In this document: positions 4,578 through 21,630 of the stretch, piece after piece
Position numbering within the stretch: the stretch's first letter is position 1
How the letters are laid out: the number at the start of each line of letters is the position of its first letter
DNA from: Synechococcus sp. WH 7803
Lineage (GTDB): Bacteria; Cyanobacteriota; Cyanobacteriia; PCC-6307; Cyanobiaceae
Direction: 5' to 3'
DNA: 64,000 bases
NCBI GenBank assembly: GCA_000063505.1
Contig: CT971583.1
Location: forward strand, 713,918-777,917
Position numbers and translations under genes: made by a program
The notes under the pieces: model-generated
Told to the model about the DNA's origin: nothing
Seen by the model: only the letters and a program-made list of their open reading frames with translations
Database searches by the model: none

Positions 4578-6176
4578 TCAGCCCAGCCTCTCCTTGAGGT
4601 GATCCCCAACGCGGATGGCATTGGCAATCGCGGTGAGTGATGGGTTCACGGCCGAGCTGCTGGGGAAGAAGCTTGTATCCACGACATAGAGGTTGTCCAC
4701 ATCGTGGGTGCGGCAGTTGAGGTCCAGCACGGATGTGGCGGGATCGGTGCCGAAGCGGCAGGTCCCCATCTGGTGACCGACAGCTGCAATATCCATCGAA
4801 GAGGCGAAGTACACCTGACGTTCAGCCAGGTGATTCTGCAGATAAAGCTTGTCAAGAAGGCCTTCCAGTCTGTTGATCAGCTCCTGGGATGCCCGGTTGT
4901 TGGTCATGGTGTAGCTCAGCTTGATCTGGCCATGGGCATCCACGGTGACCCGGTTGTCGGGGCAGGGCAGGTCTTCGGTTTGCAACCAGAAATCAAGCGA
5001 ATGCTCAGCGATGCGATCCATGCTCCAAGTGGGAGCGAGTGCCGTTAAACGCGGCTTGTAGCCCTTGATCATGGCTCCGTTGGTCTTGCCGGTCATCTGC
5101 ACATTGCCCATCGGATAATCGAAGGCGTTGTCGCCGAAATACCAGTCGTTCACTGCGACGGTTTTCTGGAAGATTGTGGTGTTGGGCTCATGGGCAAGGG
5201 CCACAACGGCCTTGCAGTTATGGAACATGTAATTCCGTCCCACCTGATCGGAGCTGTTCGCCAGTCCTTTGGGATGGGCATCATTGGCCGACATCAGCAA
5301 CAGTCGGGCAGAGTTCGCTGCTCCAGCTGAAATCACCACAATGTCTCCCCGGAAGCGGCGCTCTTCACCACGGTGATTCACAACAACCTCGGTGATCTCG
5401 CGACCGCTGGCGTCAGTCTTGAGCTTGCAGACTTCCGCTTCGGTCAGCAGAAATACGTTGTCGTGATCCAGGGCTGGACGCACACCCATCACCTCGGCAT
5501 CGCCTTTGGCGTGCACGAGACAGGGGAAACCGTCGCAGCGATTGCAGCGCACACAGGCGCTGAACGCTGGATCCAGTTCGTTCATGGCCACGCCGGTTGG
5601 TGCATGGAACGGATGAAGACCGGCGGAGCGCAGATCAGTCACCAGTTTCTGCATCCGCGGTTCGTGGCTGATCGGTGCGTAGGGGTAAGGCGAGGACGCC
5701 GGTGGCTCGGTGGGATCCTCCCCTCGTTCGCCGTGCACGTGATACCACTCTTCGGCTTTGCGGTAGTAAGGCTCGAACACGTCGTATTTAAGGGGCCATT
5801 CCGGTGACTCACCGTCGACGTGAATCACCGATTCAAAATCTCTTTCGCGAAGGCGAAAGTGGGCTGCTCCATACATCTTGGAAGCACCACCAACGAAGTA
5901 ATGACTCCCGGGTTGAAATTCCTTTCCGTTCTTGTCGAGCCAGGGATCGGTTGAGACGTAGCGATCCTTCTGAAAGACTTCAACTGGGTCCCAGTTTTGA
6001 GGTTCTCGGGGCAGCCAGCCACCTCGCTCCAGGATCAGAATCGAATGGCCTGCATCGGCCAGGGCCCGTGCCAGAGAGCCGCCACCAGCACCGCTGCCGA
6101 TGATCACCACGTTGAAGTGATCGCCTTGAGGCTCCATCGGCGTCTGACGCTGCGCGGAGCAAGTGGCAAAATCCAT
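4578..6176 (-). CDS. GMC-family FAD-dependent oxidoreductase
   Basis: The product (about 532 aa from ATG 6176) begins with an FAD-binding Rossmann motif, VVIIGSGAGGGSLARAL, and ends with the conserved GMC C-terminus DTSFFPSSSAVNPSLT, where the catalytic base region lies. GMC enzymes oxidise alcohol groups of sugars, polyols, choline or sterols. A Cys cluster, CVRCNRCDGFPC, in the middle suggests the bacterial glucoside/gluconate-type GMC subgroup. GTG 6194 and ATG 6137 are alternative starts; no clear ribosome-binding site decides between them. Substrate unknown. Confidence 0.85.
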   Translation of the reverse strand: MDFATCSAQRQTPMEPQGDHFNVVIIGSGAGGGSLARALADAGHSILILERGGWLPREPQNWDPVEVFQKDRYVSTDPWLDKNGKEFQPGSHYFVGGASKMYGAAHFRLRERDFESVIHVDGESPEWPLKYDVFEPYYRKAEEWYHVHGERGEDPTEPPASSPYPYAPISHEPRMQKLVTDLRSAGLHPFHAPTGVAMNELDPAFSACVRCNRCDGFPCLVHAKGDAEVMGVRPALDHDNVFLLTEAEVCKLKTDASGREITEVVVNHRGEERRFRGDIVVISAGAANSARLLLMSANDAHPKGLANSSDQVGRNYMFHNCKAVVALAHEPNTTIFQKTVAVNDWYFGDNAFDYPMGNVQMTGKTNGAMIKGYKPRLTALAPTWSMDRIAEHSLDFWLQTEDLPCPDNRVTVDAHGQIKLSYTMTNNRASQELINRLEGLLDKLYLQNHLAERQVYFASSMDIAAVGHQMGTCRFGTDPATSVLDLNCRTHDVDNLYVVDTSFFPSSSAVNPSLTAIANAIRVGDHLKERLG

Positions 6177-6264
6177 CGGTGGCACTGAAAGCACTGCCTG
6201 AACGCTAGGTAGGGCGTTGGCCGACGTCAGGCGATGCGTGTTGAGCCAAACCGATTGAAGGGGA

Positions 6265-8961
6265 TTAGGTCTGCCAACGATTCAGCTGGGTGATCATCTT
6301 GGCGACGATGGCGCTCCACCCTGTCTGATGACTGGCTCCGACCCCGGCGCCGCTGCAGCCATGGAAATATTCGTTGAAGAGGAAGAGATCACGCCACAGC
6401 GGATTCTGCTGAAACTGTTCAACAGGGCCATTGAAGGCGCGTCGTCCGTCGTCATCACGGCGGAAGATACCGATGAGGCGTTGTTCCAACTCAAGGGAAA
6501 TTTGCCAGAGGTTGAGTTCCCGGCCGGAGCCTGTCGGGAATTCCATTTTGAAATCGTCGCCGAAGAAATGGCCGAATTTCTGCAGCGCTTCGATCAGTAA
6601 GTAGTTGATCGGCATCCAAATGGGACCCCTCCAGTTGGAGTTCCCTCCGAACATGGCAACCGGGCTGTCTGCTGGGCTGTAGCTGATCGTGGCGTAATCG
6701 TCTCCCTGCTGATAGGAATAAGGGTGGTTTTCATACACCTTCGAGAGGCTGCGAATGCCGTAGGGAGACAGGAACTCCTCTTCATCGAACACTCTCGTCA
6801 GAATTCGCCTCAGACGGTGGGGAGGAACGATTGAAAACAGAACCCTGTCTCGGTGCCACGTGCCGAGGTGCGAGATCGCATCAAAGGGAGCTCCGCGTTC
6901 CCGGCCGAGATCATTGAGGTAGCTGCGAACATCCAAGGCTGGAATTGAATCCACCGTCTGGGCGTCAAAGGTGGCGATGGCCAGCAGTGGGATCAGTCCG
7001 CTGAGGGAGCGGGTGCGCAGATAATCGGAGCTCCCGTCTGGCCGTTTCAGCACGTCGTAATAGAACCCATCCGCTTCATCCCAATTCACGAATCCCCGTC
7101 CTGAGGGACTGTTGAGGGCATAGGTGAGCCGGCTGAAGTCGCTGACAAAGCGCTCGCACAAGCCTTTGTACTCTTCACGATCACTGGAGAGCAGAACACA
7201 GGCCTCCAGCATGTTGAGACTGAGCATGCCCATCCAGGCTGTGCCATCGGATTGCTCGATTCGACTGCCGTCTTTCAGGGGATAACGGCGATCGAAGATG
7301 GCGATGTTGTCGAGTCCGAGGAAGCCACCTTCAAACAGGCTGTCGCCGTTGCGATCCGTGCGGTTGGCCCACCATCCGTATTCGAGCAGAAGCTCCCGCA
7401 GGCTGGCGCGCAGAAAGGGATAGTCCTTTTGCCCATGGGTGCGCTTGGAGATCTGGAAAATGCGCAGGGTGGCCCAGGCTCCGATGGGCGGATTGGCGTC
7501 GGATAAGGCCCATTCATAGGCGGGGGACTGCCCGTTGTTGGCTGTCACGCTCGCCTGGCGCAGCATGCGGGCCTGACGTTTCGCTTCGCCGGGGTCGAGT
7601 TCTGCAAAGGCCACGGCGTGAACCATGAGATCCCACTGGCAGAAATAGGGATATTCCCAACAGTCGGGCATCGAAATGATGTTGCGGGCTCGCAGGGTGC
7701 TCCAGTAAGCGTTCTCGGAATGCCAACGCTCTTCCGGTGGTCGCGGAGCATTGCTGTCACCGCGCAACCATCGGGCGACGTACCAGTTGTAAAACTTGCG
7801 GCACCAGAACAACCCGGCTGCGGCGGCGGCGTGAATCGCCCGGTCTTCCGTCCCCAAGCCCGGTGCGACCCATTGCAGGTGATCCTCCCAGTCCTGGCGA
7901 CGCTGGCTCAGGACGGCGTCCACCTGAGAGGACTCCATCGGGTCTGGAGCCTTCGCTCCGTGATGGTCATGACGGCAGAGGCGCAGATCGACCTGCCAGA
8001 CCTCGCCGGGGTCGAGACGGCGTTGGAGATGAAGCGCCGCTTTGCTGCCCTCGCCGCTTGGGTTGACAGCACCTGCCTCCCCTTCAATCAGATACCGGTG
8101 AAAGGCATCCTTCACATAAGGCTGGCGAAGCGGTTGGTTGTAAAGCCGCTCGGTGTTGGTTTCATTCTCCGTGAACAGCCAGGTGCCCTGCTCGCTGCAG
8201 CTGAAGTTGTAAGACGCCAATGCATTCAATGCGTCGCTGACCACCACGCCGTCTGCCAGACGAAGTCTGGGACGGGCACTGGTGTCATCACCCCAGTCCC
8301 AGGTGTTGCGGAACCAGAGACTGGGAAGCAGGTGCAGATCCGCGGCCTCTGGTCCTTGATTGGTCACTGTGAGGCGGATCAACAGATCCTCTGGTGAGAC
8401 CTTCGCGTATTCGACGCCGAGATCGAAGAAGCGATTGTCTGAGAAAATTCCGGTGTCGACCAACTCGAATTCAGGCTCATCCCGGCTGCGGCGTTGGTTC
8501 TCCTCGCGTAGACGCTCGTAGGGAAAGCGTTCCTGTGGATAGCGATAGAGGGCCTTGGCGTAGCTGCACGTGGGTGTGCCCGCCAGGTGGTACATCGTGT
8601 CTTTCAGGTCTTCACCGTGGTTCCCTTCAGGGTTCCCTAAACCGAACAGGCGTTCCTTGAGCACAGGGTCTTTCCCGTTCCAAAGCACGGGAGCGAAGCA
8701 GAGCAGACCGTTTTCATCGCTGAGTCCGAGCAGGCCATCTTCTCCCCAGCGATAGGTGCGCAGATGACTGTGATCGAAAGGAAAGGAGTTCCAGGCATTG
8801 CCATCGCCTGAATAATCTTCACGGACGGTTCCCCATTGGCGATCGCTGAGATAGGTCCCCCAGAGGTCCCAGGGTTTCAACCCTTCATCCCTTTCCCGGG
8901 ATCGAACCAGCTCCAGAGGCTCTTCGCCCAATTGGGCCGTGGAGATGACGGACGTGGTCAT
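6265..8961 (-). CDS. Large GH63/MGH1-like glucosidase
   Basis: This 898-residue protein resembles the bacterial glucosidase family with an (alpha/alpha)6-barrel domain related to GH63/mannosylglycerate hydrolase. Evidence includes WDLWGTYLSDRQWGTVREDY at the N-terminus, an aromatic-rich catalytic domain with SENAYWSTLRARN and WMPINYLLIEALQKFG, and a C-terminal HGCSGAGVGASHQTGWSA. There is no signal peptide, so it probably acts inside the cell. GH63 relatives hydrolyse alpha-glucosides, including glucosyl- or mannosylglycerate, but this protein is much longer than the roughly 450-residue glycerate-specific enzymes. Its substrate is therefore open. Confidence 0.8.
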   Translation of the reverse strand: MTTSVISTAQLGEEPLELVRSRERDEGLKPWDLWGTYLSDRQWGTVREDYSGDGNAWNSFPFDHSHLRTYRWGEDGLLGLSDENGLLCFAPVLWNGKDPVLKERLFGLGNPEGNHGEDLKDTMYHLAGTPTCSYAKALYRYPQERFPYERLREENQRRSRDEPEFELVDTGIFSDNRFFDLGVEYAKVSPEDLLIRLTVTNQGPEAADLHLLPSLWFRNTWDWGDDTSARPRLRLADGVVVSDALNALASYNFSCSEQGTWLFTENETNTERLYNQPLRQPYVKDAFHRYLIEGEAGAVNPSGEGSKAALHLQRRLDPGEVWQVDLRLCRHDHHGAKAPDPMESSQVDAVLSQRRQDWEDHLQWVAPGLGTEDRAIHAAAAAGLFWCRKFYNWYVARWLRGDSNAPRPPEERWHSENAYWSTLRARNIISMPDCWEYPYFCQWDLMVHAVAFAELDPGEAKRQARMLRQASVTANNGQSPAYEWALSDANPPIGAWATLRIFQISKRTHGQKDYPFLRASLRELLLEYGWWANRTDRNGDSLFEGGFLGLDNIAIFDRRYPLKDGSRIEQSDGTAWMGMLSLNMLEACVLLSSDREEYKGLCERFVSDFSRLTYALNSPSGRGFVNWDEADGFYYDVLKRPDGSSDYLRTRSLSGLIPLLAIATFDAQTVDSIPALDVRSYLNDLGRERGAPFDAISHLGTWHRDRVLFSIVPPHRLRRILTRVFDEEEFLSPYGIRSLSKVYENHPYSYQQGDDYATISYSPADSPVAMFGGNSNWRGPIWMPINYLLIEALQKFGHFFGDDFKMEFPTGSGRELNLWQISLELEQRLIGIFRRDDDGRRAFNGPVEQFQQNPLWRDLFLFNEYFHGCSGAGVGASHQTGWSAIVAKMITQLNRWQT

Positions 8962-9441: not shown

Positions 9442-9798
9442 TTGACGCGAGCAGGAGTTTTGTCGCTGGGCGCCGCCCTGCTTGTGGCTGGAGCCCTCGG
9501 CTACGCGGGCTTTCAGGCCTTGGGCTTGAAGGGATTTTCCGCTGGAATTGCCGCCGAAGCCCTTTTGGTGCTCGTGGTGGTTGTGTGGACAAGCAGCTAT
9601 CTCTTCCGGGTGATCACCGGTCGGATGACCTACATGCAGCAACGGCGCAACTACAGAGCGGAGTACGACGCTCTCACCGATCAGCAGTTGCAGGCGCGTT
9701 TCGATGCCATGAGTCCAGAAGAACAAGCGGCTTTATTGGCTTCAGTCTCTGGTGAGAAGCCTGAGGAATCCCAGGACAAGGTTTCTTCCGACTCGTAG
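9442..9798 (+). CDS. DUF3007-like membrane protein
   Basis: The frame starts at TTG 9442, one base after the ndhL stop, and gives 118 residues. Two N-terminal hydrophobic helices (residues about 3-25 and 33-55) are followed by a [27 protein letters not shown] segment. That arrangement is typical of a conserved cyanobacterial family located next to ndhL. The C-terminal tail is charged and probably disordered. Tight spacing implies co-transcription with ndhL and trpA, but the function is unknown. Confidence 0.8.
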
Positions 9799-9829
9799 GC
9801 TCGCTGCCGTCACATTGTCAGATTCTGCG

Positions 9830-10633
9830 ATGCAGCCTTCGTCACGAATCGCCGAGGTCTTCGCCCAGACCGCTCGTGAGCAGCGCCTCGCACTGATGCC
9901 TTTCATCGTGGCTGGCGATCCGAATCTGGAAACAACAGCCGATATCTTGCTCAGCCTTCAGTCCAATGGTGCTGATGTGGTTGAACTGGGAATTCCTTAC
10001 AGCGATCCACTGGCGGATGGTCCGGTGATCCAATCCGCTGCCTATCGAGCATTGGCTCAGAACACCACGCCGTCGAATGTGCTCACCATGCTGCGTGGTC
10101 TGCGCGATCGTCTGACCATGCCAGTTGTGCTGTTCACTTACAGCAATCCTCTGCTGAACCGTGGTGCAGAAGCATTCTTCGCTGAGGCTGCAGATGCAGG
10201 CGTGGCTGGATTGGTGGTGCCCGATCTTCCCTTGGAGGAGGCGGAACGTTTGTCTCCACTCGCTGCTGAGCAGGGCCTGGATCTTGTGCTGCTTGTGGCC
10301 CCCACCACTCCAGGCGATCGTCGGCGCAGGATCGCAACATCCAGCCGTGGATTTACTTATCTGGTCAGTGTTACAGGCGTGACCGGTGAACGTGCTTCTC
10401 TTCAGGATCGCGTAGCAGAGCTGGTGCTTTCGCTAAAGGGATTGGAGGCTGGACCTGTTGCGGTTGGCTTTGGAATTTCTGGGGCTGATCAGGTGCGTCA
10501 GGTGCGTGAGTGGGGAGCTGATGGCGCCATCATTGGCAGTGCCCTCGTTAAAAGAATCGCCGCTGCACAACCAGGTTGTGCAGCGGCGGAAGCAGGTGAA
10601 TTTTGCCGGGAGCTGCGCAAGGCAGCCGGCTGA
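9830..10633 (+). CDS. trpA: Tryptophan synthase alpha chain
   Basis: The 267-residue TIM-barrel enzyme cleaves indole-3-glycerol phosphate to indole and glyceraldehyde 3-phosphate, handing indole to TrpB. The catalytic Glu and Asp are present in [19 protein letters not shown]. The phosphate-binding [13 protein letters not shown] and [15 protein letters not shown] segments are also present. ATG 9830 gives the normal start [11 protein letters not shown]. The frame extends upstream into the DUF3007 gene, but that part is not conserved-looking. The last 25 codons contain a strong inverted repeat that doubles as a terminator for the opposite gene. Confidence 0.96.
10558..10588 (-). terminator. Intrinsic terminator of cyAbrB gene, inside trpA coding sequence
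   Basis: A perfect inverted repeat has 15-base arms at 10558-10572 and 10574-10588 separated by one base. On the reverse strand, downstream of the cyAbrB stop, it is followed by a U-rich run (ATTCTTTTAACG), the structure of a rho-independent terminator. On the forward strand there is no T-run. The hairpin lies entirely within codons for the trpA C-terminus ([10 protein letters not shown] region). Confidence 0.8.
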
Positions 10634-11102: not shown

Positions 11103-11372
11103 ATGGCGCGTTTCGTTCTTTGGGGTTTGTACTGCGAAGATGCTCTTCAGAAAAGAGTGCCGTTTCGTGATGAGCATCTAGCTCGTCTTCAAAGTCTCAA
11201 GGACGAGGGCACCTTGATCACCTTGGGTCCAACGGAGGCCAGCACTCACGTGTTCGGGGTGTTCGAATCCGAGAGTGAATCAGCTGTTCGTGCGCTGCTC
11301 GAAGCCGACGTCTATTGGCGGGAGGGTATCTGGACGCGTTTGGATGTTTATCCCTGGATCCAGGCGTTTTGA
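11103..11372 (+). CDS. YciI-like protein
   Basis: The 89-residue protein resembles the YciI family, small ferredoxin-fold dimers with a conserved His/Asp pair. Supporting stretches are RFVLWGLYCEDALQKRVPFRDEHLARLQSL, with RDEHLA in the conserved position, and LLEADVYWREGIW near the C-terminus. The family has uncertain enzymatic function. ATG 11103 is the best start because upstream sequence in the same frame is not protein-like. The 3' end overlaps the convergent cytochrome gene by 25 bases. Confidence 0.85.
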   Translation: MARFVLWGLYCEDALQKRVPFRDEHLARLQSLKDEGTLITLGPTEASTHVFGVFESESESAVRALLEADVYWREGIWTRLDVYPWIQAF

Positions 11373-11689
11373 GCCTGAAGCCATACCCAATCGCCAACAA
11401 CCTGCTCGTTTCCCTCGCCGAGGGCATCGCCATAACCACTCATCTGGCCGATTCCCTCCTTGGCGATCGCTGCAATCGCTTCTGGATTGTCCAGGCCTCG
11501 TTTGGAAAGATCCTTCAATTTCAGTGAACGGCCGCGGCGAATGATGTTCCCGCCGTTGGGGTGACAACCAGCACAGTGAAGATCAAACAGCTGGGCGCCA
11601 TCGCTCGAGAGGGCGCCGACGCTTTCGACGGGCAAGGCGAGCGCGATGATCAGACCAGCCACAATCAACAGTGCTCGCATTGGCGACAA
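11348..11689 (-). CDS. Small c-type cytochrome (cytochrome c6-like)
   Basis: A signal peptide (MRALLIVAGLIIALALPVES) is followed by a mature domain with one heme motif, CAGCH, in LFDLHCAGCHPNGGNII. A Met in GIGQMSGYGD could be the axial ligand. At 113 residues it is the size of class I cytochromes such as c6 and its c6B/c6C relatives. It differs from the canonical PetJ at 21627-21989 in lacking the AMPAY segment. It should be a lumenal or periplasmic electron carrier, but its partner is unknown. Start is at 11689 or 11680. Confidence 0.85.
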   Translation of the reverse strand: MSPMRALLIVAGLIIALALPVESVGALSSDGAQLFDLHCAGCHPNGGNIIRRGRSLKLKDLSKRGLDNPEAIAAIAKEGIGQMSGYGDALGEGNEQVVGDWVWLQAQNAWIQG

Positions 11690-11703: not shown

Positions 11704-11949
11704 TCAGTCTGCCTTTGAGGCCGTGTCATTCATCTGGTGAGACCGTTGATAGCGGAGCACCAGATCCTCAGGGGAGCGGTAGCTCTGAGGAAGTGAACGA
11801 TGCAGCCGTTGGAGATAGTCCCAGCAAATCGTGCGCTGAATGGCCGTCATGGATCGCCCTTCAGAAACAAGGCGACGCAGCGCTTGGCAATAGCTTGAAA
11901 ATCCTGCTTCCAGATCACCAATCGTGAGCGTGCGACTTGAGGCGGTCAT
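11704..11949 (-). CDS. Conserved-looking small protein, 81 aa
   Basis: The 81-residue protein is helix-rich (SSYCQALRRLVSEGRSMTAI, then WDYLQRLHRSLP) and lacks membrane or signal segments. It resembles small proteins found only in picocyanobacteria (possibly the DUF3136 group, an uncertain assignment). It lies just upstream of the cytochrome gene on the same strand with a 14-base gap and may be co-transcribed. No function is proposed. Confidence 0.6.
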   Translation of the reverse strand: MTASSRTLTIGDLEAGFSSYCQALRRLVSEGRSMTAIQRTICWDYLQRLHRSLPQSYRSPEDLVLRYQRSHQMNDTASKAD

Positions 11950-12034: not shown

Positions 12035-12601
12035 ATGGCAGAAGAGGATCTGCAGCGGTTTCTGGAGAAGGTGAAGGCGCTCAATGCTCTCGTTGCACGT
12101 CTCGAGAGCGATCCTGCTTCGCGCCAGCAGTTCGCTGCTTGCTCGGACCACAACGCCGTGGTGGCGCTGGCCTCAGCGTGGGGATTTGAGATCGGACGGC
12201 GTTGGGGTGAAGCGTCGCTCACTGGGCCATCGCCCTCAACGGCGACGTCGAATCTTCTGGCGGACGCCGAGACTCTTCCTGGTGAGGAGCAGGAGGACGT
12301 TCTCTGCAGCGGCGCTGATTGGAGGTTGGTGGTCATCCGCTCCAATGCTGCGAGCACTCCCGCTGGCTTCTGGTACGACCAGAGTGAAAACGAATGGCTG
12401 ACGTTGCTGAAGGGAAGCGCTCTTCTGCGTCTGGCAGATCCTGACCAGTTGGTGGATCTCAGTGTTGGCGATCAGTTGCTGCTTCCGGCTGGTCGTCGTC
12501 ATCGGGTGGAGCGCACTGATCCCCATCCAGGTACAACCTGGCTTGCTCTGTACTGGACTGATGCTTGCGCGCCGAATCACCAGGCTGCATTGAACGTTTG
12601 A
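12035..12601 (+). CDS. Nif11-cupin fusion protein
   Basis: The 188-residue protein appears to join two unrelated domains. Residues 1-60 form a Nif11-type helical domain (EDLQRFLEKVKALNALVARLESDPASRQQF, then VVALASAWGFEIG). After a linker (about 60-95), residues 95-180 form a cupin-like barrel (GFWYDQSENEWLTLLKGSALL, then DLSVGDQLLLPAGRRHRVERT). The cupin metal-binding residues Glu and His are partly present. This pairing of a leader-like domain with a cupin is unusual. The 3' part is antisense to the PsiE-like gene over 143 bases. Confidence 0.75.
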   Translation: MAEEDLQRFLEKVKALNALVARLESDPASRQQFAACSDHNAVVALASAWGFEIGRRWGEASLTGPSPSTATSNLLADAETLPGEEQEDVLCSGADWRLVVIRSNAASTPAGFWYDQSENEWLTLLKGSALLRLADPDQLVDLSVGDQLLLPAGRRHRVERTDPHPGTTWLALYWTDACAPNHQAALNV

Positions 12602-13019
12602 CCAGCCAGTAAGCGCCTGCAAGAGCGATTGAGGAAATTCCTAGACCGATCAGCAGCTGGGGTTTGTTTTCCGATCCCGCTGGCAGCACGATCACTTTGC
12701 GGGCGACGGCGGTTAAGGCTGTCACGAGAACCAGTTCGATTTGAACCACGTGACGCCGCAGGTAACTGGTGATGTTCTGCAGCACCTCCAAAGCGATCAG
12801 AACAGTGAGCAGATCTCCCAGAACTCGGATCAGTCCGTCGCCGAGCCAGTACGCGTCCTGATCGGTGTTAATCAGGGCGAGTGTGACTTTGACAGTGAGT
12901 TGAACCAGGGCTGCAACGATGACCACTGCTGTGATCACGGTGAGAAGCATGGCGACTTGTTTTTCGCCCTGATCAACCCACTGCAGAAAACTGCGGCGCC
13001 GGCGACGAAACTCAGGCAT
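12459..13019 (-). CDS. PsiE-like membrane protein
   Basis: The 186-residue protein starts with a basic segment (MPEFRRRRRSFLQWVDQGEK) and then has four hydrophobic helices, the pattern of the phosphate-starvation-inducible PsiE family of unknown function. The ATG at 13019 begins this conserved part; longer frames upstream are not protein-like. The last ~45 residues (a charged tail with PPDDDDQPEAATD) lie antisense to the Nif11-cupin gene. They may be a recent extension after loss of an earlier stop. Confidence 0.8.
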   Translation of the reverse strand: MPEFRRRRRSFLQWVDQGEKQVAMLLTVITAVVIVAALVQLTVKVTLALINTDQDAYWLGDGLIRVLGDLLTVLIALEVLQNITSYLRRHVVQIELVLVTALTAVARKVIVLPAGSENKPQLLIGLGISSIALAGAYWLVKRSMQPGDSARKHQSSTEQARLYLDGDQCAPPDDDDQPEAATDRQH

Positions 13020-13024
13020 GCGCT

Positions 13025-13279
13025 TCAGTTGCTGCTGAAGGGGTTGTAGTAAGGCTTCGCCGGGGTATCGCCGGGTGGGTTCTCGATCTTGGTGTTGCAG
13101 GTGATCGATCCGTCTGCATTTTCCAGGCAGTCGGTGGGAACAACGGTGCTCTCTGGACCTGTGCGGCTGTTCGGACCCAGAAGCCAGACCTCCGATTGAG
13201 CCAGAGCGGCTTGAGGGAGCGTGGCGCAAAGGGCTGTTAGCAAACTGATGCCGGCTAGCTGTCGGGGCAGGAAGGGCAT
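13025..13279 (-). CDS. Secreted small protein with signal peptide
   Basis: The 84-residue product starts with a clear signal peptide (FLPRQLAGISLLTALCATLP, cleavage likely after ALA). The mature part of about 55 residues has two Cys (DCLENADGSITC) that could form a disulfide. It lies 5 bases upstream of the PsiE-like gene on the same strand, so the two may be co-expressed. I do not recognise a named family. Confidence 0.7.
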   Translation of the reverse strand: MPFLPRQLAGISLLTALCATLPQAALAQSEVWLLGPNSRTGPESTVVPTDCLENADGSITCNTKIENPPGDTPAKPYYNPFSSN

Positions 13280-14103: not shown

Positions 14104-15030
14104 TCAAACGCTCAGCTCGACCAGCCCATGCTGAATGCCCGTTTTACGGAGCTTGCGCAGTGCGCGCTGCACGACTTGGCGGCAGTATTCGCGACTGCAG
14201 TTCATCTGACGGGCCACCTCGGCCAATGTTCTCCACTCGTTGCTGCCATCAAGGCCGAAGCGCAGCATGACGACGGTGCGTTCCTTGGGGGTGAGATTGG
14301 ATTTATCGAGCAGCTTCCAGGCTGATGCTGTGCGCTCGGCAATCTCAGCCCGTTCCATGGGTGGTACCTCTTCACTGGGCAGCACATCCACCAGTTCCGA
14401 GGGGTCGGATTTTGACTTCACCACCCCTTGCAGGCTCACGGTGACGCTGCGCAGTTCACATCCCAGAAGATCTTCAACTTCGCTGATGGGAAGATTCAGA
14501 TCGTCGGCAAGTTGCTCCGTGCTTGGTGATAAACCATTCCGTTGCATCAGACGGGCTTTGGAGGCACGAAGTTTTGTTAGTTTTTCATTCACATTGACGG
14601 GAATGCGAATGGTGCGGCTTTGGGTGGACAGCGCTCGATTGAGGCCCTGCCGAATCCACCAATAGGCATAGTTGGAAAAACGATGTCCCCGGGTTGGATC
14701 GTATTTCTCAACGGCTCGGGTCAGTCCGAGTGTGCCTTCCTGGATCAGGTCGAGAAGGTCGAGGCCTTTGCCCTGGTAGCGCTTGGCGAGATTCACAACC
14801 AGCCTGAGGTTGGCTGTGATCATTTGATTCTTGGCCTTTTCACCGCGTTTGATCGTGCGCTTCTCGTCATCGCTGTACTCGCAGGCCGGGCCGCTGCCGC
14901 CCGCGAGATGGCAGCGTTCGGTCAGGCTCACCATGGCCTGAACTTTCCGACCCATCGTTAATTCCTGCTCAGGCGTGAGTAACTGGTGTCTGCCGATTTC
15001 GCCCAGAAATGCACTCAGGGAGCTCACCAT
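14104..15030 (-). CDS. Group-2 (RpoD-like) RNA polymerase sigma factor
   Basis: The 308-residue protein has sigma-70 regions in order. Region 1.2 is FLGEIGRHQLLTPEQEL and region 2 has NLRLVVNLAKRYQGKGLDLL, then DLIQEGTLGLTRAVEKYDPT and FSNYAYWWIRQGLNRAL. Region 3 and region 4 follow, with a helix-turn-helix, TLAEVARQMNCSREYCRQV. The absence of the long N-terminal extension of the housekeeping factor and the well-kept region 2.4 place it in the non-essential group 2 (type 2) class that cyanobacteria use for stress and light responses. Which SigB/C/D/E-type it is cannot be decided here. Confidence 0.92.
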   Translation of the reverse strand: MVSSLSAFLGEIGRHQLLTPEQELTMGRKVQAMVSLTERCHLAGGSGPACEYSDDEKRTIKRGEKAKNQMITANLRLVVNLAKRYQGKGLDLLDLIQEGTLGLTRAVEKYDPTRGHRFSNYAYWWIRQGLNRALSTQSRTIRIPVNVNEKLTKLRASKARLMQRNGLSPSTEQLADDLNLPISEVEDLLGCELRSVTVSLQGVVKSKSDPSELVDVLPSEEVPPMERAEIAERTASAWKLLDKSNLTPKERTVVMLRFGLDGSNEWRTLAEVARQMNCSREYCRQVVQRALRKLRKTGIQHGLVELSV

Positions 15031-16568: not shown

Positions 16569-17246
16569 ATGTCGCGGAGATGGCGCCCCGGTCAGCTGAT
16601 GGCACTGCCCGCCCTTGCTGCTGTGGCGGTCGCTGCGGTGGGGTGCAGTGCCTCGGATCAGAGCGTTGATTCATCGGCTGGAGGAGCGTCAACCATCCGC
16701 ATTCAGTTGGATGGCAAGGATCCATCGGCCAGTCGCGGGGAGCTGGGGCGCGGCAGCAAGCCTCTTCAGTTCAAAGTTGGCTTCGGGCGCAACGGCATTG
16801 CCTGCCAAGGAACGCGTTTCGAGGAGGGCTGGACTCCCCTGGGTACCTTCCGTGTGAACGCTGTGCTCAGTGCGGATCGCTTTGCGATGGACCCCTCCCT
16901 GGTGGAGGCCTCCGGACGCAGTGAGGACTATCTGCGCGACAACCTATTCCGCAACATGAGCGCGATTGACTTCAAAGGGGATGGTGAAACGGCGGAATAC
17001 GGCATCGGTTACATCAGCCTGACCCCGGTTCCAGCGACGCCCCAGCCGTTCCGCTTCAACACCTACGACGGCCAGTTCCGCTGGTACAGCTTTGCCATTC
17101 ACGGCACCAATGACTCCAGTCGGGTTGGTCAGTCGGTGACGGGTGGGTGTATCAACGTGGGAGAGCAGGCGATGGCCGACCTGCTCAAGACCGTTCAACT
17201 TGGCGATGAGGTTGTGATCACCTCCGAGAGCCCCTGCGTGTCTTAG
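16569..17246 (+). CDS. L,D-transpeptidase (YkuD) lipoprotein
   Basis: From ATG 16569 the product is 225 residues. It begins with a lipoprotein signal ([14 protein letters not shown], with the lipobox Cys near residue 26). The C-terminal YkuD catalytic region has the conserved His and Cys in [13 protein letters not shown] and TGGCINV. Such enzymes form 3-3 peptidoglycan cross-links or attach proteins to peptidoglycan. The longer upstream frame is less likely because the signal peptide begins at this Met. The stop overlaps the convergent hisIE stop by 4 bases. Confidence 0.85.
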
Positions 17247-17923
17247 GCCGACGGATCGTGCCGCCTTGGTGCCCCGCGTCGGGCCGCAAGAACCTCTTGC
17301 ACCTGGCGCCAGCTCACCCCGTGATGGGCGAGGGCGACTTGCATGTGAAACAGAATGTCGGCTGCTTCACCGGCAATCTCATCGGCGTTGTTGTCCTTGC
17401 AGGCCATCACGAACTCGGCGCTTTCTTCGCCGATCTTTTTGAGAATGCGGTTGTCGCCACCCTCAAGCAGCTTGTTGGTGTAGCTGCCCTCGTCCGGGTG
17501 TTCGCGGCGGTGTTCGATCACGCGCATCAGTTCCGTGCAGGCATCCGCCGGCGGTGGCAAGGCCTGGGGGCCGCCTTCACTGCGTTGATCCCGGTTTTCG
17601 TAGAAGCAACTGCGTGCTCCTGTGTGGCAAGCCACATCGCCGCGCTGCTCGATGGTGAGCAGGATCACGTCGGCATCGCAGTCGTAGCGGATGTTGCGCA
17701 CCGTCTGGGTGTGCCCACTGGTGGCTCCCTTGTGCCAGAGCTCCTGGCGGGAGCGGCTCCAGTAATGCGCCTCGCCGTTGCTGAGGGTGAGCTCCAGTGA
17801 CTCGCGGTTCATCCAGGCCACCATCAGCACGGCGCCATCCAGCCAGTCCTGCGCAATCGCGGGGATCAGTCCCGCTTCGTTGAAGCGGAGCTGATCGAGG
17901 AACGCTGGGGTGAGGGACTGCAT
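17243..17923 (-). CDS. hisIE: Bifunctional phosphoribosyl-AMP cyclohydrolase / phosphoribosyl-ATP pyrophosphatase (HisIE)
   Basis: The 226-residue protein joins the two domains that catalyse steps two and three of histidine biosynthesis. Residues about 20-125 are HisI, with the metal-binding Asp/Cys region in [20 protein letters not shown] and HTGARSCFY. Residues about 135-215 are HisE, with [13 protein letters not shown] replaced by [18 protein letters not shown] and [10 protein letters not shown], the pyrophosphatase helices. The fused form is common in cyanobacteria. ATG 17923 gives a normal N-terminus. Confidence 0.93.
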
Positions 17924-21429: not shown

Positions 21430-21630
21430 TCAGATCCTGCTCTTGTCAAACCAGTTTGCGATCTTGGAGCAGTGCGCATCGGCCTGGAAATCTCCGGCCG
21501 AAACCGAAAAGCCTGTGCGTCTTGCCAGTTCGATCACCGCATCAAGCGTGGCGAGGTTCTGAAAGTCTCGTCTCAAGCCTGGGCTGCGCTCCAGCGCTCG
21601 AACGAAATCGCTGAATCCCTCTCGGCTCAT
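21430..21630 (-). CDS. Nif11-domain protein, 66 aa
   Basis: The 66-residue protein is almost entirely a Nif11 domain: FSDFVRALERSPGLRRDFQN, then DAVIELARRTGFSVSAGDF. It has no double-Gly site or core peptide, so it is probably not a RiPP precursor. Its ATG overlaps the petJ stop by 4 bases (ATGA), so it is likely co-translated with cytochrome c6. No function is established for such stand-alone Nif11 proteins. Confidence 0.75.
   Translation of the reverse strand: MSREGFSDFVRALERSPGLRRDFQNLATLDAVIELARRTGFSVSAGDFQADAHCSKIANWFDKSRI

Follow-up and report, generated by a model that had tools for sequence, protein, structure and literature searches.

A Nif11-cupin fusion protein of Synechococcus sp. 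WH 7803 and indications of repeated loss of its cupin half in Prochlorococcus

Which half of a two-domain protein carries its function is the question raised by the gene at positions 12035 to 12601 (plus strand) of the window, the whole 64,000-nucleotide stretch of Synechococcus sp. WH 7803 DNA analysed here. The gene starts with ATG and encodes 188 amino acids, in which the original prediction recognized a Nif11 domain joined to a cupin with no core peptide. This architecture is borne out by the Pfam Nif11 model, by the NCBIfam model TIGR03890 over the full length and by a match to the cupin structure 2OPK. Profile searches recover both halves. Nif11 is found at residues 1–57 well above its gathering score (E 6.6e-16; 58.8 bits against 23.8), whereas the Pfam cupin matches remain below theirs (Cupin_2, E 1.4e-4; Cupin_6, E 4.1e-4) and the cupin is secured by TIGR03890 and 2OPK. 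TIGR03890, named nif11_cupin and classed as a hypothetical equivalog, scores 284.4 bits (cut-off 159.45; E 2.5e-85) along profile positions 1–171 of 171. The fusion is already catalogued under this name, and the present gene is one copy of it, with the same architecture end to end and no difference of its own. Its discovery therefore adds little, and the fusion is not unusual, as had been supposed: it is a named family, carried by most genomes in the taxonomic family of the source organism and found in the majority of small cyanobacteria of both sea and fresh water. The source genome (2.37 Mb, one contig) has a single nif11-cupin copy among eleven Nif11 matches.

The Nif11 domain occupies residues 1–59 (12035–12211) by Pfam and AlphaFold, and the cupin barrel, which is of the 2OPK type, residues 83–174 (12281–12556). 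The cupin half matches 2OPK by sequence (E 6.9e-12) and by profile (E 6.3e-31), and 2OPK is also the best match in the PDB for the AlphaFold model of this half (Foldseek E 2.7e-11, TM 0.89 on target). Together with TIGR03890, these matches make the identity of the cupin certain despite its sub-gathering Pfam scores. The AlphaFold model (mean pLDDT 87.6) has Nif11 helices at residues 3–25, 27–35 and 39–48 and a beta barrel in the second half. The variable linker between them (residues 60–82; 12212–12280) has no Gly-Gly site and is modelled with low confidence, lowest at residues 65–69, and the mutual placement of the two domains is predicted without confidence (pTM 0.59). Comparison of the window gene with the gene of locus L087 reveals purifying selection on both halves (dN 0.14 and 0.16, dS above 1) and relaxed dN in the linker only. 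Because both halves are under purifying selection, the gene is real.

The original prediction asked whether the cupin keeps its metal ligands, and the answer is mostly negative. Motif 1 of the cupin is WYDQSENE (residues 113–120; 12371–12394), and His156 (12500–12502) is the conserved histidine of motif 2. In an alignment to quercetin 2,3-dioxygenase, with the ligand positions of that enzyme as the reference, the two histidines of HxH are replaced by Trp113 and Asp115, whereas Glu120 and His156 align with the remaining two ligands. The classical pattern of three His and one Glu (HxH(x)3-4E in motif 1 and the His of motif 2) is thus not found, and with two of its four ligands replaced the classical metal site is absent; as judged from sequence, the cupin may hold an atypical one. 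Among the 108 distinct full-length proteins, Trp113 is present in all, Asp115 in 85, and Gln116, Glu120 and His156 in 105 each; the last three are also kept in the aligned stand-alone cupins. Fold and pocket residues are those of the 2OPK type. 2OPK itself (Ralstonia eutropha Reut_A1446, labelled a putative mannose-6-phosphate isomerase) is the nearest solved cupin in both sequence and fold and has the same pocket Trp-Tyr-Asp, Glu and His, but it stands alone and carries Ser at the position of Gln116. A literature search on 2OPK returned crystallography methods papers only and no functional paper. No copies of nif11-cupin were present in viral contigs, and the BFVD matches were generic cupins.

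The Nif11 half is strongly conserved. Cys36, His39, Gly50, Ile53, Arg56, Trp57 and Gly58 do not vary among the 132 distinct proteins compared (108 full-length and 24 short), bearing in mind that RWG, but not the Cys and His, was partly included in the search pattern that fetched 80 of the loci. All 14 invariant Nif11 columns are common to the fusions and to Nif11-only proteins of 59–66 amino acids. The combination of Cys36-x2-His39 (12140–12151) with the RRWG motif at residues 55–58 (12197–12208) does not occur in any further Nif11 paralogue of the source genome that was examined. A Foldseek search of the PDB with the Nif11 model found no fold relative, and sequence comparison with structures gave only weak matches, among them 9zn4 (E 0.014), which is a deposited Nif11 domain protein. 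That Cys36 and His39 occur in every protein compared and are absent from those paralogues would suit a small module for metal, heme or thiol-redox chemistry, with the cupin handling the same cofactor. In communities of Synechococcus, a Nif11-like transcript increases as more iron is supplied (PMC9723758, where the particular Nif11 gene is not stated), which points the same way. However, there are only two candidate ligands per chain, and in the AlphaFold model both sit where helices 2 and 3 join, a position that may be purely structural. A cofactor role of this kind is therefore considered rather improbable.

It may also be asked whether the protein is a RiPP precursor, with Nif11 as leader and an unusual core. 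The leader model TIGR03798 scores 30.9 bits on the Nif11 half in the full protein (cut-off 32.3) and 35.9 bits when this half is scanned alone. RiPP mining of this group has counted such clusters (PMC10783134), including a cluster 2 of marine Synechococcus in which a Nif11 domain/cupin beside a putative epimerase was treated as a RiPP cluster; in contrast, no epimerase is present among the conserved nif11-cupin neighbours identified here, the slot being housekeeping. N11P/TIGR03798 precursors and prochlorosins have the Nif11 domain in common with nif11-cupin. They possess a Gly-Gly leader end and a core, with LanM or YcaO available, whereas nif11-cupin possesses neither motif nor core and has instead a helix 1 longer by about ten residues, the Cys-x2-His and RRWG motifs and a folded cupin in the place of the core. 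The short Prochlorococcus proteins end just 1–8 residues past RRWG. In the source genome no match to LANC_like or YcaO was found, and its one C39 peptidase lies about 160 kb away. Since Gly-Gly, core and LanC/YcaO are all missing, nif11-cupin is very hard to reconcile with a RiPP precursor. Two other Nif11 genes of this genome (L177 and L178, near 365000 and 998400) do combine a site of the Gly-Gly type with short cores. They are possible peptide precursors, with modification unknown or absent in view of the lack of LanC/YcaO matches.

The gene is isolated on its strand, the immediate neighbours being opposite. Upstream are a small DUF3136 protein (11704–11949, minus strand) and a cytochrome c (Cytochrome_CBB3; 11348–11689, minus strand) that is kept in 13 loci, and downstream is a convergent ORF with a PsiE domain (12459–13229, minus strand), the 3' end of which overlaps the end of nif11-cupin by 143 bases (12459–12601). 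The surrounding slot is anchored by trpA (9752–10633, plus strand), a sigma-70 family factor (14104–15030, minus strand) and hisIE (17243–17923, minus strand). Its order, common to the 13 loci with minor differences, is trpA, abrB-like, YCII, cytochrome c, nif11-cupin, DUF1232, sigma factor, DUF2214 and hisIE. A scan for promoter and terminator found none. A functional link via the neighbours of the fusion was considered and rejected, the slot being conserved yet housekeeping and the gene alone on its strand.

A search for other Nif11-cupin fusions, proposed in the original prediction, was fruitful. TIGR03890 matches in 171 of 201 genomes of the taxonomic family, above its cut-off, as a fusion, in 120 and below it in 51. 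Among the matches listed, nearly all sub-cut-off genomes have a frame that stops after the Nif11 part, and such Nif11-only descendants fall under the family cut-off. The 80 named loci comprise 73 fusions (Synechococcus, Cyanobium and some Prochlorococcus) and seven Nif11-only genes, all from Prochlorococcus. A cupin half alone in the place of the fusion was found neither in the named loci nor in the listed family genomes. Matches above the cut-off are confined, in the phylum sample, to this taxonomic family; where other cyanobacteria match, they do so with a stand-alone cupin half in a frame of 101–157 amino acids, and 20 such loci revealed no conserved neighbours.

The true separate versions of the two halves are these stand-alone cupins of other cyanobacteria and the Nif11-only proteins of Prochlorococcus, rather than the window genes that had been put forward as such. 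The cupin at 152–613 (Cupin_2, E 2.2e-7) has no TIGR03890 match, and the Nif11 proteins encoded from 1583 (E 5.9e-9) and at 21430–21630 on the minus strand (E 4.4e-10) lack the Cys-x2-His...RRWG signature. The former Nif11 gene (1583–1855) lies between an SMP-30/gluconolactonase gene (631–1578) and an HbpS-like gene, with the cupin gene upstream. Cyanobium-like nif11-cupin genes are also present in L160 (titled Microcystis elabens) and in L129, a record titled as a Bifidobacterium breve MAG that looks mislabelled or misbinned. In L126 (Synechococcus sp. GFB01) the frame shifts inside the cupin part, which is either a frameshift or a draft error.

How the Nif11-only genes arose can be followed in Prochlorococcus. 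In four genomes the ancestral slot is occupied by a Nif11-only gene (loci L031, L162, L169 and L170). Relocated Nif11-only genes are located beside pcb-type antenna genes (PF00421; L032, L033, L034, L049, L050 and L171), near a PAP/fibrillin gene (L166–L168 and L173) or near a fatty acid desaturase (L164 and L165), these neighbours being named by Pfam on one or two members per set. The pcb-adjacent genes occur in two different gene orders; their adjacency may be a functional hint or may reflect one shared relocation.

Two full-length genes are natural intermediates of cupin decay. L174 (genome G046; 5996–6526), in the ancestral slot, retains a full-length frame with an intact Nif11 half (E 7e-8) and no Pfam cupin, and its ligand positions are lost (WYDQ to WYKL, E120K and H156F). 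Between L174 and L045 the cupin pN is 0.48 as against 0.22 for the intact pair L045/L090, while the Nif11 pN is 0.27 as against 0.23. In the second, L057 (G147, a 2.6 Mb genome), Gln116, Glu120, His156 and Trp169 are replaced by Ser, Leu, Tyr and Arg, respectively.

In a host tree built from TrpA, the sigma factor, HisIE and AbrB of 27 slot genomes, the Nif11-only rows are scattered among fusion rows and four changes are required; the test rejects a single Nif11-only clade, with p-AU 0.021 when L174 is included and 0.046 when it is left out. Repeated loss of the cupin within Prochlorococcus lineages is thus supported with moderate confidence, the p values being 0.02–0.05 and the forks inside Prochlorococcus partly open. 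The direction is that of loss because the Synechococcus and Cyanobium outgroups have the fusion and because the intermediate is visibly decayed. The apparent Nif11-only gene L175 (G068) is interrupted by an assembly gap and was excluded from the loss count.

Gene fission was ruled out by the missing separate cupin: at E 1e-3 the cupin profile has no match in 34 of 37 Nif11-only genomes. The remaining three have a 113-aa frame (G117, E 4.5e-9) or frames of about 485 aa with matches near 1e-3 (G003 and G110), which on their sequences may compensate for the cupin in trans. The profile detected no cupin remnant in the region downstream of the Nif11-only genes. A search of the literature did not find the pattern of cupin loss with Nif11 retention; what is new here is the in-place loss of the cupin, with Nif11 retained, in several Prochlorococcus lineages.

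The losses took place in reduced genomes, and in 30 of the 201 family genomes the search has no match, among them five from genus g9, 95–99% complete, in which neither half is matched. The whole protein might accordingly be of little importance and the loss of its cupin mere drift in small genomes. Such neutral streamlining is at odds with Nif11-only genes that are intact and have low dN/dS (L166/L167; dN 0.18, dS 1.28) after relocation and in many near-complete genomes, and it seems a poor bet as an explanation.

Comparison of the sequences suggests that it is the Nif11 half that counts; this half is the retained part because it persists alone, equally conserved, where the cupin has been deleted in place or has decayed. 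The leading, though still tentative, reading is that the Nif11 half performs the core function through partner binding and that the cupin, as a small-molecule module, is dispensable. Judging from its helical fold, size and conservation, the Nif11 half would bind a conserved protein partner. Recruitment of a partner, as originally predicted, is plausible and fits with Nif11 being kept alone. The cupin, whose type occurs as a stand-alone protein in other cyanobacteria and is joined to Nif11 here, would bind a small molecule and thereby modulate or supplement the function of Nif11, and streamlined oligotrophic lineages would manage without this contribution.

Since the fusions hold the cupin under clear purifying selection, it must matter in most lineages. 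This selection, and the near invariance of Gln116, Glu120 and His156, stand-alone cupins included, would also be expected if the cupin were the working part, as an enzyme or a binding barrel, and Nif11 a tag that docks it to a partner. However, such a tag would persist without its cargo in many genomes, a cupin half alone occurs in none of the named loci or listed family genomes, and two classical metal ligands are missing. We consider this arrangement unlikely, if slightly less so than the cofactor and streamlining explanations.

A more specific form of the reading in which Nif11 carries the core function would make the Nif11 half a 60-residue non-RiPP adaptor, perhaps acting with the photosynthetic antenna, and the cupin a detachable regulatory sensor that was repeatedly lost. 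The possible antenna role follows from the pcb-type genes beside the Nif11-only gene in Prochlorococcus, in two gene orders, and this specific form is as improbable as the cofactor role.

The pattern of loss points to the half of the protein that is worth studying, and natural fused, damaged and Nif11-only versions are available for comparison in culturable strains. It also calls for caution, since short Prochlorococcus Nif11 proteins need not be RiPP precursors. If the adaptor reading is true, many of the short Nif11 proteins of Prochlorococcus that are labelled as RiPP precursors would be mislabelled.
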